The notes under the pieces: generated by a model
What the model was told of the DNA's origin: nothing
Seen by the model: only the letters and a program-made list of their open reading frames with translations
Databases searched by the model: none
Translations under genes and position numbers: made by a program
Shown: positions 3,681-13,203 of the stretch, piece by piece
How positions within the stretch are numbered: the first letter of the stretch is position 1
Layout of the letters: each line of letters opens with the position of its first letter
Origin: Alphaproteobacteria bacterium
GTDB lineage: Bacteria > Pseudomonadota > Alphaproteobacteria > Rhizobiales > Aestuariivirgaceae
Reading direction: 5' to 3'
Length of the DNA stretch: 34,990 nucleotides
Assembly (NCBI GenBank): GCA_024279095.1
Contig: JAJRRY010000034.1
Span: 1 to 34,990 of the forward strand

Positions 3681-5024
3681 ATGGGCTATGCATCGAATGG
3701 TTTCGTGGAAGTCGGGATCGTCGAAAAGGAAGAGGCAGCCCGGATGCAGGACCGGAAAATATGGGAGGCCTTGCGGGGGGTAGGCGCTGACGAACTGAAG
3801 GGGGTGGATGACGACGCTCTTCATCGGGTCATGTCGGGTGTGTTCTCGGATCTCCGCGGAGAGAGAGACGGCCCGCTGCGGGCACGGGTCCGGTCCCGGG
3901 GGGAAGGCTCGGAGGCGGTCTTTCATGTCGATGTGCTGAGTGGACGGCCCGATGCATCCGCAGACGTGCAGGTTCTGCCGGCCGGCGTGCAGATGGACAT
4001 GGCGCTGCTTGATGGTGGCGGAGGGCAGGGGCGTGCCGTGGTGAGTCTGTCCGGCGACGGACGGGTCGAGCCGGGCAGCATACTCTGTGATGCGCGGTTT
4101 CCTGCCGCCCAGTCGGACATGTTCTCCCTGAATGTACTGTGGCTTGGCGCGGAGCCCATGTATGCCGGACGCACGTACCGGATCTCGACGGTGTCGGGGG
4201 AGTTCTCGGCGCTTGTCGGCAAGCTGAAAAACCGCATCGACCCGCAGACCTTTCTGCCCCTGGCCACGAAGCAGCTCGAACGGGCGGCCGTGGGACAGGT
4301 CGAGATCGAGCTGGACGGAACACTGATATTCGATACGCATGATGTTCTTTCCCCCTTGGCGCACGTCCTGTTCAAGGATGACGAAGGAAAGCGGGTTCTG
4401 GGTTTCGGTGTCGTCAGGTTCGCTCTGCGCAGGGCCAGCAACATCCGGTGGCAGGAGCTCGAGCTTGACAAGACGCAGCGGGCCGCAGGGCTGGGGCAGA
4501 AACCGCTGGTGCTCTGGTTCACGGGGCTTTCCGGATGCGGCAAGTCCACCGTCGCCAGTCTGCTGGAGAAGAAGCTCCATGCAATGGGCAAGCACACCTA
4601 CATCCTGGATGGCGACAATGTCCGCCATGGGCTTTGCAAGGACCTGGGCTTCACCAAGGCCGACCGGGTGGAGAACATGCGCCGGGTGACGGAGGTGGCG
4701 AAGCTCATGACCGATGCCGGCCTGATCGTTCTCGTGACTTTCATTTCGCCTTTCCGGGACGAACGCAGCAGGGCTCGCAAATCTTTCGAAGATGGCGAAT
4801 TCATCGAGATTTTCGTGGATACGCCGCTGGAGGTCTGTGAAGCACGTGACATCAAGGGGCTGTATGCCAAGGCGCGGGCCGGGCTGATCCGGAATTTCAC
4901 AGGGATCGATTCCCCTTACGAACCGCCGGAAAATCCTGAAATCCGCCTGCCGGGCTCCCAGCTTACCGTGGAACAGATGACGAACAGGATCATTGCCTGG
5001 CTTCAGGACAGAAGGCTGATCTGA
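3681..5024 (+). CDS. cysC: adenylylsulfate (APS) kinase fused to CysN-like C-terminal beta-barrel domains, no GTPase domain
   Basis: C-terminal APS kinase: [16 protein letters not shown]-loop, [42 protein letters not shown]-terminal half [24 protein letters not shown]...[11 protein letters not shown]...[21 protein letters not shown] resembles the CysN domain II/III and linker of CysNC proteins; no GHVDHGKS or DTPGHEQY motif present. Confidence 0.9.
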
Positions 5025-5053: not shown

Positions 5054-8000
5054 TTACAGGAGCGGGAAGTTGCGCATCAGGGCAAAGAGGGGGGGCCTGT
5101 CCTTTTCCAGCTTTCTGACGAATTTTCCATTTTCCATGATGAAGCGTTTCCGGAACACTTCGTTGAGTGACGTGCCGACTTTCCTGTGCCGGGAAATGAA
5201 ACGTCTTTCCTCGGGAAGTGTTTCGATCCCGGCATGATCGAAGAACGCGTCGAGAAGAACCCTCCCGTCTTCCAAGGAGAACATCTGCTCGTAGCTCATG
5301 ATGCGAGCGTTCAGGCGTTTTTCTTTCACGAGCCGGAGAATTCCTTCTTCCTGTTTCCTGATATGATTGATCCAGTACTTGATCTTGATACTGTCGTATT
5401 TCAGGATGTTGTCGATGGCTTCCGGATTTCTGGTGTCATCCTTTGTCAGGTGGAACACGCCGCTTTCCACTGCCTTGTAAAGTGAAATGCCCTGCATGAC
5501 GATATCTTCCCGGAACAGCACGAAAAACGGTATTTCCGGTGGAAAGTGCACGAAGAAATCCGTGCAGTCCTGAATCATGGAATAATGAAAGAAGCTCAGT
5601 TCGGCTCCGAAGACTCCATTGAGCGTTTTCTTGTGCCTCTTCAGCATCTCCATGTAACGGTCCACGCTGTCGGCATTGAGGCGGGCGGCCACCTTGGTGA
5701 TCCAGTTCGGATTGAACCATTCCTCGGGGAAACCCGCGCATCTGGTGGATGACAGCAGGCCTGTGAGATAGGTGCTGCCCGACCTTGGCGTGAAAAGGAT
5801 GATGTAATTCCGTGTAGCTGGAGCGATGCGGCGCAAGTCATGCTCGAACTTTTCTTCGTCCACTGCATTCCTGGAAAGCAGGTCGTCCAGTGTTCTGTCC
5901 CGAAAGGGCTCCCTGAATCTGCGGACGAAGGAAAGGATTCGTTCCATGATCCTTGCCGGGGATTTGTGCATCTCCAGCGGCATCAGCAACGCATGCGGCA
6001 GATCGCGCAGGCGTTCCTGCATGGCTCCGATCTCGAAAGCGGCCAGCGGGAGCCCCGATTTCAGGGCCACGGACAAGGTGTAGCAATAGGTTTCCGGCCA
6101 GGTGGCGGGAAAAAAGAGGATGTCGAGGTCATTGTTCCTGATGATCTCCTGAACGTGCTCGTTTCTGTAGGGGCCGGTGATGTGGATGCCATAGCGCCGG
6201 GCAAGCATGTTGTTTTTCGTGTAGCCGATGACCACGAATTCGACGGGCAGCTTGTTGCGCCGGGCATGATCGGCACAATTGAGCAGAACCTCGAAGCCCT
6301 TGATATGACTGATCGCTCCCAGGATGCCGATGCGTACCGGTCCCGATGCCGAACGGTGTGACAGGTCGCGCAGTGGAGCCGGGCGGACACCGTCATGTGG
6401 CAACACGACGATGTTTATGTCCGGAAAGTACCTTTTCATGCGATTGGCCGCATCATGACTGGGAGCAATCACGTGATCGGCATCGCGAAGAAGAATTTCG
6501 TAGGATTTGCGCCACCGTGTAATGTCGTGGATGTTGAACTCGGATCCTGCCGTCGTCAGGCAGGTGCGGCAGCCATCCTTGTCCGGCTCGCCACAGTAGA
6601 GCCCCTTGCGGTCTGCAAGATTGATACGGGGGCACAGGGCCAGAAAGTCATGCACAATGAAATCATAGGGGATGCCTGCCTGCGTCAGAAGTTCATGCAT
6701 GATCCGGGGGCCGTCGGAGGAAAATTCGAAAAGGTGGTGGATCTGCACCCGGCTGATTCCAAGCTCCCGGAGATGGGCCAGCAGGTCTTTCCGGCCCGTT
6801 TCGCTTCCGAGATCCATGCCTGACAGGTTGGGCACCTCTGGCGCGTCCATGTGTGTCAGGCGGACGGTGTCGCTGTGGTCGCGTTCCGCAAAGAGGCGGA
6901 AAACACCATGTCCGTTCCGTTCCAGCCGCTCCGCCTCCTCGAGGACGTGCTGCTCCGTACCACCCCCTCGCTGGTGGGAGATGATGAGTATGTTGTTTTC
7001 CTTCTTCAGAAGCTTGAGACGTTCCAGATCCAGCGTCATGCGCATCCGGTGCAGGGGGTCCAGGGCCATGAACCGCTCCACGGCCGCACGATACGACGGA
7101 TGGCGGCGGTCGAGGATCGCGAGCGCCTTGTGGATCCGGTCGGTTTTCTCCTCTCCGAAGGAGATGCCGCCCAGATGCCGGACAAAGACGTCCGCAGCGG
7201 CAACGTCCACCCAGCCGCGGGCCTGTGCGCGTTGACAGAAGTCATTTTCCTCTCCGTAACCCCTGCCGAAGGCATCTTCGTCGAACAGGCCGACATCCTT
7301 CAGAGCATCGCGGCGGATGTACATGCAGAAGCCTACCGCTGTGGGAATGGGTATGGTCTTGCCGGCATTCCTTTCGGCAGCGATCTGGTCCAGCTGACGA
7401 TAGCTGATTTCCAGGGGATACGGATTGTCACGGTTGAAATGCGGATAGCTGCAAATGGTGCCGTTGTTGGTCAGGGGAGTTACGCTGGAAGCGTTCTTCA
7501 GACGGTATGCGGCACGTCTGAGCCTGTCCACCCAGCCGGGATACACTTCGGTGTCCGAATTGAGCAGAATGACGTCCCGTTCGTCATGCAGCGACATGCC
7601 TTCGTTGACACTGCGCACGAAGCCCATGTTCCGGGAATGCTCGATCAGCTTGAAGAAGTTGCGTTCGGCCAGTTTCCGCAAATCCTGCGCCAGTTCCGCT
7701 TCAGGCGAACAGTCATTGATCACGACGACCCTGAAAGGCGTATCGCATGGGGAAGTCAGAACGGCATGCAGGCAGCGCAGGGTGATCTCCCGGTTCCGGT
7801 ATACCGGGATGATGACGTCAACGAGAGCATCAGAGGCATGGACGCCGGCTGCCGGAGCATCGATCCGGTCGAGAGCCTCCGCGACATTCCCGATGAGGTC
7901 CTCGCTGTTGAGGCCATGTCGACGCTGGTAGGGCAGAGCCGGCGGGGTTCTCCGACTCTGCTCCTGACATTCCGGATTGTCGAGAAAGTGGATGAGGGCA

Positions 8001-8602
8001 GGCAGTCCGGATTCCGCAGCTTCCGGAAAGGCCTGCAAATAGAGCTCGGGATCGAACCAGGGCGATCCGCACCGGTTTTCGTTGCAGCCGAAACGCAGAA
8101 AATGAACGTAGGGGTCGATCTTCGACTGGGCGACGTCGCGGTTCTCCCGGCGGTAGAAATGGTAATCGAACCATGGGGTTGGCGAGATGTCGCGTGTGCT
8201 TCCGCAAAGAAGAAAGTGGGACAGGGCGTTGAGGGGAAAGTCCTTTCCTATGCCGGCCTGTCGTCTGTAATATTCCACGTCGAAGAGAGGGGAAGGATTG
8301 AAGTTCTTTCGATGACCTGTTCTGATGAAATGAGAAAGAAGGTCCGTTCCTGCCGGAATGTTTTCTCCATATTTTTTAAAGTAATAATCTTCATCAAATA
8401 TATTGTTCTTGTCATTTCTTATGATCATCCTGTCAATTGCACGACATGCAATCTCAATAATGCGCGTACCATTTATGTATTTGTGCACCCACCTGTTGCG
8501 TATGATGAAATTTCCAATGTACCTCGGTATGTAATATCCGATGGCCAGATAAAACCTTCTTCTGATCATGTTGCCCCCGAGCCAGATTTTCTTTTCACCC
8601 AA
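5054..8602 (-). CDS. multidomain glycosyltransferase-sulfotransferase: N-terminal repeat region, GT2, GT4, C-terminal Stf0-like sulfotransferase
   Basis: 1182 aa. Repeats FDEDYYFKKYG...LLSHFIRTGHRKNFNPSPLFDVEYYRR...; GT2: VDVIIPVYRNREITLRCLHAVLTS, VILLNSDTEVYPGWVDRL; GT4: VRIGILGAISHIKGFEVLLNCA, ILFFPATWPETYCYTLSVAL; sulfotransferase: NYIILFTPRSGSTYLTGLLSSTRCAGFPEEWF. Confidence 0.9.
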   Translation of the reverse strand: MGEKKIWLGGNMIRRRFYLAIGYYIPRYIGNFIIRNRWVHKYINGTRIIEIACRAIDRMIIRNDKNNIFDEDYYFKKYGENIPAGTDLLSHFIRTGHRKNFNPSPLFDVEYYRRQAGIGKDFPLNALSHFLLCGSTRDISPTPWFDYHFYRRENRDVAQSKIDPYVHFLRFGCNENRCGSPWFDPELYLQAFPEAAESGLPALIHFLDNPECQEQSRRTPPALPYQRRHGLNSEDLIGNVAEALDRIDAPAAGVHASDALVDVIIPVYRNREITLRCLHAVLTSPCDTPFRVVVINDCSPEAELAQDLRKLAERNFFKLIEHSRNMGFVRSVNEGMSLHDERDVILLNSDTEVYPGWVDRLRRAAYRLKNASSVTPLTNNGTICSYPHFNRDNPYPLEISYRQLDQIAAERNAGKTIPIPTAVGFCMYIRRDALKDVGLFDEDAFGRGYGEENDFCQRAQARGWVDVAAADVFVRHLGGISFGEEKTDRIHKALAILDRRHPSYRAAVERFMALDPLHRMRMTLDLERLKLLKKENNILIISHQRGGGTEQHVLEEAERLERNGHGVFRLFAERDHSDTVRLTHMDAPEVPNLSGMDLGSETGRKDLLAHLRELGISRVQIHHLFEFSSDGPRIMHELLTQAGIPYDFIVHDFLALCPRINLADRKGLYCGEPDKDGCRTCLTTAGSEFNIHDITRWRKSYEILLRDADHVIAPSHDAANRMKRYFPDINIVVLPHDGVRPAPLRDLSHRSASGPVRIGILGAISHIKGFEVLLNCADHARRNKLPVEFVVIGYTKNNMLARRYGIHITGPYRNEHVQEIIRNNDLDILFFPATWPETYCYTLSVALKSGLPLAAFEIGAMQERLRDLPHALLMPLEMHKSPARIMERILSFVRRFREPFRDRTLDDLLSRNAVDEEKFEHDLRRIAPATRNYIILFTPRSGSTYLTGLLSSTRCAGFPEEWFNPNWITKVAARLNADSVDRYMEMLKRHKKTLNGVFGAELSFFHYSMIQDCTDFFVHFPPEIPFFVLFREDIVMQGISLYKAVESGVFHLTKDDTRNPEAIDNILKYDSIKIKYWINHIRKQEEGILRLVKEKRLNARIMSYEQMFSLEDGRVLLDAFFDHAGIETLPEERRFISRHRKVGTSLNEVFRKRFIMENGKFVRKLEKDRPPLFALMRNFPLL

Positions 8603-8980: not shown

Positions 8981-9568
8981 ATGGACGTGCAGAGGTTCGA
9001 TATCGAAGGTCCGCTCCTGATCATCCCGGAGAGGATTGCCGATGACCGGGGCTTGTTTTCGGAGACGTTCCGGCGTGACGTTCTGGCCTGCCACGGCTTC
9101 GATCGTGAATTCGTGCAGGAGAACCATTCCCTGAGCCGACGGATCGGTACCGTGCGGGGACTGCATTTCCAGATTGCGCCAAGGGCGCAGGACAAGCTGG
9201 TGCGCGTGGTCCGCGGTGCGATACTGGATGTCGTGGTGGACATCCGGCATGGCTCGCCCACCCATGGCCGTCATCTGGCAGTTGAACTCTCGGCGGAAAA
9301 CTGGCGGCAGCTTCTGGTGCCGGCGGGTTTTGCGCACGGGTTCTGCACCCTCCAGCCGAATACGGAAGTTGTCTACAAGCTCACGGATCATTATGCGCCG
9401 GAATATGAGCGGGGGCTGGCCTGGAATGATCCGGCGCTGGCCATCGACTGGCCCGTGGATCCGTCGAATGCGGTTCTGTCGGAAAGGGACCGGCGGCATC
9501 CGTTCCTGTCCGCGCTGCCGGAATATTTCACTTTTGTGGATCGGCATGGCGGGAAGCGGGAGGTGTGA
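8981..9568 (+). CDS. rmlC: dTDP-4-dehydrorhamnose 3,5-epimerase
   Basis: LLIIPERIADDRGLFSETFRRD...FVQENHSLSRRIGTVRGLHFQIAPRAQDKLVRVVRGAILDVVVDIR...VPAGFAHGFCTL: typical RmlC/RfbC. Confidence 0.95.
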   Translation: MDVQRFDIEGPLLIIPERIADDRGLFSETFRRDVLACHGFDREFVQENHSLSRRIGTVRGLHFQIAPRAQDKLVRVVRGAILDVVVDIRHGSPTHGRHLAVELSAENWRQLLVPAGFAHGFCTLQPNTEVVYKLTDHYAPEYERGLAWNDPALAIDWPVDPSNAVLSERDRRHPFLSALPEYFTFVDRHGGKREV

Positions 9569-9570
9569 CG

Positions 9571-10467
9571 ATGCGGATTCTCGTGACCGGGCGTTCCGGG
9601 CAGCTGGCCCGTGCCCTTGTGGAGGTTCCCCTTCCGTCCGGTTGGCGCATGGTGGCTCTGGGGCGGCGCGAGATGGATGTCACCATGCCCGACAGGATTC
9701 GCGGCGGAATGGAAAGGATCGGGCCGGATATTGTGGTGAATACGGCAGCCTGGACGGATGTGGAACGGGCGGAGGAGGAAAGGGAGGAGGCCCTGGCGCT
9801 GAACCGTGATGGTGCGGCGTATCTGGCGGAGGCTTGCAAACGAAGGGGAATCCCGCTCATCCACATTTCCACCGACTATGTTTTCGATGGCCGGAAGGGG
9901 GCGGCTTATGTCGAGGATGATCGCCCTCATCCACTCAATGTCTACGGACATTCGAAACTGGCTGGCGAGCAGGCTGTCATGGCCATCTGGGAGCGCAGCA
10001 TCGTGCTGCGGACGGCCTGGCTTTTCGGGCCCTATGGCCGCAATTTCTTGCGGCGCATCCTCAAGCTGGCGCAGGAGCGCAAGATGCTGCCGGTGGTGGC
10101 GGATCAGAGGGGCTCGCCGACCTGCGCTCTTCATCTTGCGGAAGTCATCGTCGAGATGATCCGCAGGATGGCGGAAGAGCGTGCGGCGAGCCGCAGGTTC
10201 CAGGGAATATTTCACGCCGCAGGGGGCGGGGATGCCTCTTGGCATGATCTTGCAGTGGAGGTGCTGCGTGTGGCGCGGCGGTTGGGCATGTCCGTGACGG
10301 CGCAGGTCGTGCCGGTGCGGACGGAGGAGCGGTCCGCAAGGGCCGTACGTCCCGCGGACAGCCGTCTTGACAGCTCGCGGCTGCAGGAAGTCTTCGGCCT
10401 GCGACTTCCTTGCTGGCGGGAAGGGGTGTCCATCAGCGTACAGCGGGTGTCACGGCCGGAAAAATGA
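9571..10467 (+). CDS. rmlD: dTDP-4-dehydrorhamnose reductase
   Basis: MRILVTGRSGQLARAL, VNTAAWTDVERAEEE, HISTDYVFDGRKGAAYVEDDRPHPLNVYGHSKLAGEQAV: RmlD SDR signatures; ORF track begins at 9565. Confidence 0.95.
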   Translation: MRILVTGRSGQLARALVEVPLPSGWRMVALGRREMDVTMPDRIRGGMERIGPDIVVNTAAWTDVERAEEEREEALALNRDGAAYLAEACKRRGIPLIHISTDYVFDGRKGAAYVEDDRPHPLNVYGHSKLAGEQAVMAIWERSIVLRTAWLFGPYGRNFLRRILKLAQERKMLPVVADQRGSPTCALHLAEVIVEMIRRMAEERAASRRFQGIFHAAGGGDASWHDLAVEVLRVARRLGMSVTAQVVPVRTEERSARAVRPADSRLDSSRLQEVFGLRLPCWREGVSISVQRVSRPEK

Positions 10468-11330: not shown

Positions 11331-11495
11331 ATTTCCCTTGCCCCCCATCCCGACCTTCCCTCACAAGGGGGAAGGGGCAGGGCCATTGCCCCTCTTGCCG
11401 CCATTCCACAGGGTGTGGAAAAGGCATTTCTCTCCCTTGACTTGAAACATGCCCCTGCGCCAGCGTGGAACAACATGTGAACAACCGGAACTGAC

Positions 11496-13203
11496 AATGG
11501 TACAAATCCGCATCAGGAACAGGGAAGAGCTTGTAGAGTGGCTGGAAGGCCAGCCACGCGAGGTGGCCGTGGCCATAGCCGCCCGTGCGGCGATGCGGGT
11601 TTTGCCGGTGCTGGAGACCTGGTTGGCGGAGGATGAGGAGGAAAAGGAAGCTGCTTTTGGTGTCTTGCTGCTTTTTCGGGCCTTGGCTGTGTCGCGAATG
11701 GCAGCTTTGGATTCAAACCAAAACTCAGAAATGCGGCAAATTATAGATCGCACCATAAAATCAATACTCTTTCATGCTGCCTCTTTTCCTGAATATTTTC
11801 GTGTAAAAAATAGCATTTTATCCGCTTTTGGTAGCCTTTTAACTTCCCTTGATGGGGCTTTGATTGCGCATGAAGCTGTAGATGTTTTGTCTCATGTATC
11901 TTTACTTATTTCTGATATGGCTTGGCAATCTACAGAGAGTGACGCGAATATTTGGGCGCAGAGAACAGACGGAAGCATTTCTGATTTCGTATGTGAGGCT
12001 CTGTGGCCAGATGGTATGCCGGAGGAACTGCGCAAGCGCTGGGATTCCATGAAAAAGCGCCTCTTGGCCCGCAAGGGGGAGCATTGGGAGGTCTGGACGA
12101 ACTGGTATGACGCTCGCCTCGACCCATCCCGCCGCATTCCCTGCTACAGCCCGCCCATCCCCGAACTGGAGCGCAAGCGCATCCTGCTGCCCGAAGAAGT
12201 GTGGGAAGCCGGCCCCGCCACGGCCAACGCCGAAATCCGCCGCCTGATCGACGAACACGACTGCGCCCGGCAATCGCTGCGGCAAGCCCCCGCCCCGTAT
12301 GTCTTCGAGGAGAGGGAAGGACGCATCATTGCCGAGCCGTATCGCGGCGAGATACACGACCCCGTCCTTGCCGAAGAGATGCGTGCGGCATTGTGCGAGC
12401 GTGCACGGGAAGTGGTGGAGTTGCTGCGTGGCAAACAGGTGCCGGGCCGGGTGGCCAATACCATCGAGCGGCTGGTGGAGGTGCTGGGGGACAGTCTTCA
12501 GGATGTGGAGCCAGGCCGCCTGCTGTTCGTCAGCCGGGCGTTGGAGGCCGATCTGGACGCTTATGACAGCGAGGACGGCAGGCAAAACCTTGGCGAAGAC
12601 GGGTTCGCCGCATTGCGCGAGCTGGCGCTTTTCACCACTGATCTGCGCGCGCAGTTTCAGGCCATTACGGACATGCTGGCCAGGGCCGATGCCCAGAAGA
12701 TTCTGGAAATGGGCATCGACAAGGCGGAGGAAGCGCGCCAGCAAATGATCGATGCTGTGCGGCAAGCGCCCGGGGAGGAAATCGACAAGGAGAGCGTGTT
12801 GCCGGCCCTGACCGCCGCCAATGCAGATATCGCCGAGGTGCGAGAAGAGCATGATGCCACCTTCGATGAAGAGCGGCAGGCCAATCTGAGGCTGAAATGG
12901 GCGCAGCTTCTCTCTGTTGATCTGTTGTCGCATCGCAATTTCATGTCCAGGCTGGTGCAGAAGGCACGAGCCTATGCCGAGGCCGCCCGAAAGGATGTGC
13001 AGGATGGAAAAGGGGGAGTACGCGTAGCTCTGGAAAAAGGAGCTTATGCGACATTGATCATCGGGGCGCTCAGCCCAATTGCCGGAGCGATGACTGGCCT
13101 CACTGTTGCCGGGTTGGCGGGCTGGTCAATCCTGAAAAGGGAGGCGGATGCTATTCTCGCCGAATGGGAGAAAGGGCAGGGTGATGATGACGAGCGGGCC
13201 TGA
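11496..13203 (+). CDS. hypothetical protein with C-terminal hydrophobic segment
   Basis: From ATG 11496 MVQIRIRNREELVEWLEGQPREVAVAIAARAAMRVLPVLE...; internal HWEVWTNWYDARLDP motif; hydrophobic YATLIIGALSPIAGAMTGLTVAGLAGWSIL near the C-terminus. ORF track begins at 11449. Confidence 0.8.

Follow-up and report, generated by a model that had tools for sequence, protein, structure and literature searches.

Methyl, methyl-phosphate, or Kdo caps serve as terminators in the polymerase-terminator systems of Klebsiella and Escherichia coli, and the known terminators occupy the distal tip of a coiled-coil ruler. In ABC-transporter-dependent glycan assembly, polymerase glycosyltransferase (GT) modules and terminators are spread over single and multi-module proteins (PMC11231755). 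WbbB (Klebsiella pneumoniae O12), ORF6 (O7), and WbdA/WbdD each combine two GT modules with a modifier or terminator in one polypeptide or complex, with export by an ABC transporter (PMC11231755). Sulfation enters the picture in the capsule of Cobetia marina, which contains 2-O-sulfated rhamnose; the locus of strain KMM 1449 holds dTDP-Rha genes, PAPS genes, a sulfotransferase, and ABC capsule export genes (PMC11766843), the same set as is proposed here, although GT and sulfotransferase genes are listed there as separate. By analogy, this capsule would be the nearest characterised product to that of the protein described below, in which two GT domains and a sulfotransferase of the Stf0 family are fused. 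In mycobacteria, Stf0 transfers sulfate to the precursor of a glycolipid (PMC11625862).

The window (the whole stretch of DNA analysed, 34,990 nucleotides) is an entire contig of a 2.4 Mb genome, assembled in 236 contigs, from the same genus as Thermopetrobacter sp. TC1. The initial annotation had described a single 1182-aa protein joining N-terminal repeats, GT2, GT4, and a C-terminal Stf0-type domain with a PAPS-binding P-loop, and had proposed Pfam annotation as a check. Both the open reading frame and the Pfam scores agree with that architecture (Table 1). All three enzyme domains exceed the curated cut-offs: GT2 (PF00535, residues 263-437) scored 62.9 bits versus a cut-off of 23.3, GT4 scored 43.5 versus 28.5 (PF13439, residues 547-735) and 30.3 versus 27 (Glyco_trans_1_4, residues 757-890), and the C-terminus was placed in the Stf0 family (Sulphotransf PF09037, residues 933-1108) at 59.4 bits versus 22 (E 5e-16). 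The repeat units are about 37-45 residues long (n = 4). Codon 12 is an ATG (base 8569) that follows a GGGGG stretch; judged by eye, it is a likelier start than the TTG at 8602 and would give a protein of 1171 aa.

Table 1. Features of the fusion gene and its neighbours in the window.
Feature	Position	Strand	Remarks
APS kinase (CysC) after a CysN remnant without GTPase domain	3681..5024	+	Convergent with the fusion gene; 29 bp between the two stops
Fusion gene (repeats, GT2, GT4, Stf0)	5054..8602	-	Uninterrupted over 1182 codons, counted from TTG
Stf0-type sulfotransferase domain, residues ~930-1174	5081..5815	-	Pfam, motifs, profile-to-PDB, fold
Stf0-domain motifs			P-loop TPRSGSTY; base-type Glu in GFPEEWF; 3'-phosphate region REDIVMQGISLYKA
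GT4 domain (GT-B fold, two-lobed), residues ~545-900	5903..6970	-	Pfam, WPETYxYTLS motif, fold
GT2 domain (GT-A fold), residues ~263-480	7163..7816	-	Pfam, NSD and GYGEENDF motifs, fold
Four N-terminal repeat units, residues ~67-216	7955..8404	-	FDxxYY...HFxxxG
rmlC, dTDP-4-dehydrorhamnose 3,5-epimerase	8981..9568	+	
rmlD, dTDP-4-dehydrorhamnose reductase	9565..10467	+	

Beyond Pfam, the Stf0 assignment is upheld by remote homology and by fold. A profile built from 29 Stf0 domains matched 1TEX in the PDB (E 1.3e-42), and the structure predicted for the domain (mean pLDDT 90.2) has the four chains of 1TEX (Stf0) as its closest solved structures (E 1.2e-9, TM 0.60/0.66). The full-length prediction modelled the GT domains well and the Stf0 part poorly, the latter because only two aligned rows contain Stf0. 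The domain retains the R...QGISLYKA stretch and, in an alignment, a Glu at the position of Glu36 of Mycobacterium smegmatis Stf0, the proposed base. Fold, P-loop, and the aligned catalytic-type Glu are thus shared with the Stf0 trehalose 2-sulfotransferase (PDB 1TEX; PF09037), and PAPS is the expected donor. That enzyme, however, is a stand-alone glycolipid enzyme, whereas the window domain is fused; identity with trehalose 2-sulfotransferase (NF047724, NCBIfam) was rejected, and a different acceptor is expected since the score of 36.5 bits lies far below the equivalog cut-off of 400.

As a module, the GT2-GT4 pair is found widely. Among 83 relatives, the NSD and GYGEENDF motifs of GT2 and the WPETYxYTLS motif of GT4 are near invariant, and all are kept in the window protein, where the GT part of the predicted structure matches GT-A and GT-B structures. 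The first Glu of the GT4 EX7E motif is likewise kept, and the second is replaced in the window protein and in nearly all 83 relatives; the idea of a degenerate GT4 peculiar to the fusion was discarded on this ground. Additions to the core vary: N-terminal repeats occur in 30 of the 83, a fused N-terminal methyltransferase in 26, and a long C-terminal extension in 8, which is Stf0 in two Thermopetrobacter proteins and gives glycosyltransferase-type matches in most of the remaining six. Many relatives have an ABC-transporter ATPase nearby (the single one examined carries Wzt_C), and many are found at O-antigen-like loci that encode long transporter ATPases. A modular GT2-GT4 core near ABC ATPases agrees with the published picture of ABC-dependent assembly (PMC11231755). 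The methyltransferase-GT2-GT4 proteins of Burkholderiales and others (L054, L020, L045) resemble the window protein in joining a modifier to a homologous core, but theirs is an N-terminal methyltransferase and that of the window protein a C-terminal Stf0. Proteins of this methyltransferase type at five loci (L020, L027, L045, L049, and L054), many of them beside ABC-transporter ATPases, are candidate polymerase-terminator proteins in their own right.

Within the genus, the fusion is present in 2 of 11 genomes. The second copy is that of the isolate Thermopetrobacter sp. TC1, where a GT2-GT4-Stf0 protein with 44% identity and without the repeats is encoded on a 1.07 Mb scaffold. Its Stf0 domain scores 85.8 bits (E 4e-24, Pfam), and because this orthologue independently shows GT2, GT4, and Stf0, the domain assignment is not due to chance. 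The P-loop, Glu, and 3'-phosphate motifs are common to both fusions despite only about 41% identity. In samples of 386 class genomes, 399 phylum genomes, and 369 more from the class of genome G818, nearly all Stf0 proteins are short and stand alone; the other long open reading frames with Stf0 were a TPR-GT4-Stf0 protein and a 519-aa protein, and in a 764-aa frame the Stf0 match fell under the cut-off. As regards a mobile or viral origin, phage records gave no Stf0 match. No published description of the repeats-GT2-GT4-Stf0 architecture was found in the open-access literature searched, in agreement with the remark in the initial annotation that no characterised system of this kind was known to it.

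Other proteins that unite a GT and a sulfotransferase in one polypeptide, as the window protein does, are of independent origin. The TPR-GT4-Stf0 fusion (1067 aa) belongs to another alphaproteobacterium, G346 (L145:2617-5817, + strand), and two Kordiimonas carry GT2-Sulfotransfer_3 fusions (L023:10295-13039 and L060:9138-12017, both - strand) beside separate GT2-GT4 and Stf0 genes; the GT partners in all three differ from those of the window protein, and the Kordiimonas sulfotransferase is of another family. Two further long proteins were observed. One, of 943 aa, is encoded in G583, a genome of the same genus (L152:3800-6628, - strand), with an APS kinase gene about 1-2 kb away; it has a sulfotransferase-like LVLGMHRSGTSALTR start and a weak GT4-like part, with no Pfam match at 0.001. 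The other, of 1127 aa, in Methylomonas (L012:16403-19783, + strand), has GT90 and GT61 with a P-loop-like HIGTGKTGTSTIQ start and adjoins an Stf0 gene.

In a phylogenetic tree of 60 Stf0 domains, those of the window and TC1 fusions are sisters (support 99/96), and a single fusion event lies behind both proteins. The Stf0 of genome G067 joins them at 99/84, and those of a Thioclava plasmid, a Tateyamaria plasmid, and genome G852 join this group at 100/96. The other members of the clade are unfused, each encoded by its own gene in the vicinity of a GT2-GT4 gene, and kps or rml genes are found at every clade locus. In G852 and G067 the Stf0 and GT2-GT4 genes adjoin, with rmlA/C/D beside them; the two plasmids carry an annotated separate Stf0 gene among capsule and ABC-transporter genes (kpsM/E/T loci). 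The Stf0 genes of the plasmids and of G852 were retrieved with Stf0 queries only, without reference to GTs, and a GT2-GT4 gene lay within about 10 kb in all three, compared with none of 38 other Stf0 loci; the Fisher p of 9e-5 is only indicative, since the sequences are related and the three unselected members are kin to one another. The Stf0 clade is specifically partnered with GT2-GT4 genes in capsule loci. More distant Stf0 genes in Kordiimonas and Methylomonas also adjoin GT2-GT4 genes, both having been retrieved through a GT query.

The window fusion gene is flanked by the APS kinase gene on one side and by rmlC and rmlD on the other. Elsewhere in the window, two proteins, of 255 aa (586-1353, - strand), adjoining a LysR-type HTH protein (1408-2277), and of 584 aa (11449-13203, + strand), match nothing in Pfam or NCBIfam. 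The TC1 fusion lies directly downstream of kpsE/kpsM, with kpsT opposite, in a locus that also holds NeuA/B/C-like genes (named by eye) and a Sulfotransfer_2 gene. No rml genes were found in about 20 kb around the TC1 fusion, which makes rhamnose in the product uncertain. No kps genes occur in the window; among the contigs of its genome sampled by search, C69 holds a kpsD-kpsT-kpsE-kpsM-kpsC locus (genes named from their resemblance to those of TC1 and by eye). A set for an ABC-transporter-dependent sulfated capsule (export genes, PAPS genes, sulfotransferase) is therefore present in one genome, with export genes adjoining the fusion in TC1 only.

With respect to sulfate donor supply, the APS kinase next door would provide PAPS. 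Its NCBIfam match (PRK05506) begins at position 274 of 632. Short APS kinases of this kind with a CysN remnant (frames of ~456-486 aa) recur in the genus (L138, L139, L140, and L141), with Sat in place of CysD, and are possibly a genus-wide remodelled PAPS enzyme. APS kinase was found in 7 of the 11 genus genomes, including members without the fusion, and is thus not dedicated to the fusion protein; it may serve other sulfotransferases too. A Sat-type ATP sulfurylase is present in 11 of 11, and PF01507 (CysD or PAPS reductase) in none of 11, the control genomes being positive in 14 of 14. APS is therefore available, and PAPS is without a detected reductive use. TC1 has been described with AprBA, rDsr, and Sox genes (PMC5099947).

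Taken with gene context and phylogeny, the best-supported reading is that one polypeptide would both extend and sulfate a glycan. We consider it reasonably probable that the protein is a cytoplasmic dual-GT enzyme of an ABC-transporter-dependent capsule or similar surface polysaccharide and that its fused Stf0 domain sulfates the growing chain. The GT2 and GT4 modules would each form a different sugar linkage of the repeat unit, with rhamnose possibly among the sugars added; the C-terminal Stf0 would take PAPS from the APS kinase and esterify the nascent chain with sulfate before a Kps-type transporter exports it. We infer that the domains are catalytically active, that rhamnose may be part of the product, and that sulfate goes onto internal residues rather than the chain end. 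In favour of this reading, the TC1 fusion sits directly behind kpsE/kpsM, the window genome has kpsD/T/E/M/C, and the Stf0 clade partners GT2-GT4 with kps or rml at every locus. GT2-GT4 relatives in ABC-export loci carry other modifiers, a methyltransferase in 26 of 83. The domains exceed their cut-offs, the motifs are conserved, the Stf0 model and the 1TEX match agree, and APS kinase and Sat are accompanied by no PF01507. Counting against this reading are the export genes of the window genome, which lie on another contig rather than adjacent to the fusion, and the GT4 that lacks the second EX7E Glu, though this loss is family-wide.

The same chemistry could instead yield a sulfated O-antigen, exopolysaccharide, or glycolipid headgroup, as the kps-free window, the many GT2-GT4 relatives at O-antigen-like loci where long transporter ATPases are encoded, and the action of mycobacterial Stf0 on a glycolipid precursor (PMC11625862) would allow. 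This is unlikely given that kpsM/E/T loci enclose both the fusion gene of TC1 and the Stf0 genes of the plasmids and that the window genome encodes its own kps genes. An inactive Stf0 domain, or one sulfating a small molecule unrelated to the GT product, would make the fusion functionally neutral; its restriction to 2 of the 11 genomes of the genus and a window Stf0 score under that of typical members point that way, but motifs kept in both fusions at only about 41% identity and a separate-gene Stf0/GT2-GT4 partnership conserved across the clade make it very improbable. That the long open reading frame is an assembly artefact or a sequencing frameshift joining two genes, as might be suspected in a 236-contig assembly, has negligible likelihood, being ruled out by the same fusion in the isolate TC1.

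A further possibility is that sulfate is a chain terminator, with Stf0 capping the non-reducing end and thereby setting polymer length or licensing export. The many GT2-GT4 relatives with an N-terminal methyltransferase in ABC-ATPase loci, one checked ATPase having Wzt_C, and the single-protein polymerase and terminator known for WbbB (PMC11231755) would fit. When compared with WbbB and WbdD, the window protein likewise has two GT modules in one polypeptide, but its modifier is a C-terminal sulfotransferase, no long coiled-coil ruler is seen in the linker of only about 30 residues between GT4 and Stf0 (judged without a dedicated coiled-coil predictor), and no Wzt_C carbohydrate-binding domain was found on KpsT of the window genome or TC1 (about 240-290 aa in Thermopetrobacter). 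With too little space for a ruler and a KpsT devoid of Wzt_C, we judge termination by sulfate improbable. Little probability also attaches to a self-contained polymerase-sulfotransferase in which sulfation coupled to growth is a checkpoint that ends the chain or licenses its export. Such a checkpoint, if real, would be a sulfate-based analogue of methyl, phosphate, or Kdo termination, and the protein would then be, to the best of the authors' knowledge, the first enzyme to assemble a bacterial polysaccharide and sulfate it within one polypeptide.

Only a small number of sulfated polysaccharides are known from bacteria, and the sulfate is usually assumed to be added afterwards, in a step of its own, by stand-alone enzymes. 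The fusion, together with its clade of unfused partners, provides a concrete case in which a coupling of sulfation to chain assembly can be tested, and the fusion protein could be a single-enzyme tool for sulfated glycan synthesis. An Stf0 gene of this clade near a GT2-GT4 gene would be a marker by which sulfated-capsule loci could be found in Alphaproteobacteria and on the plasmids they carry.
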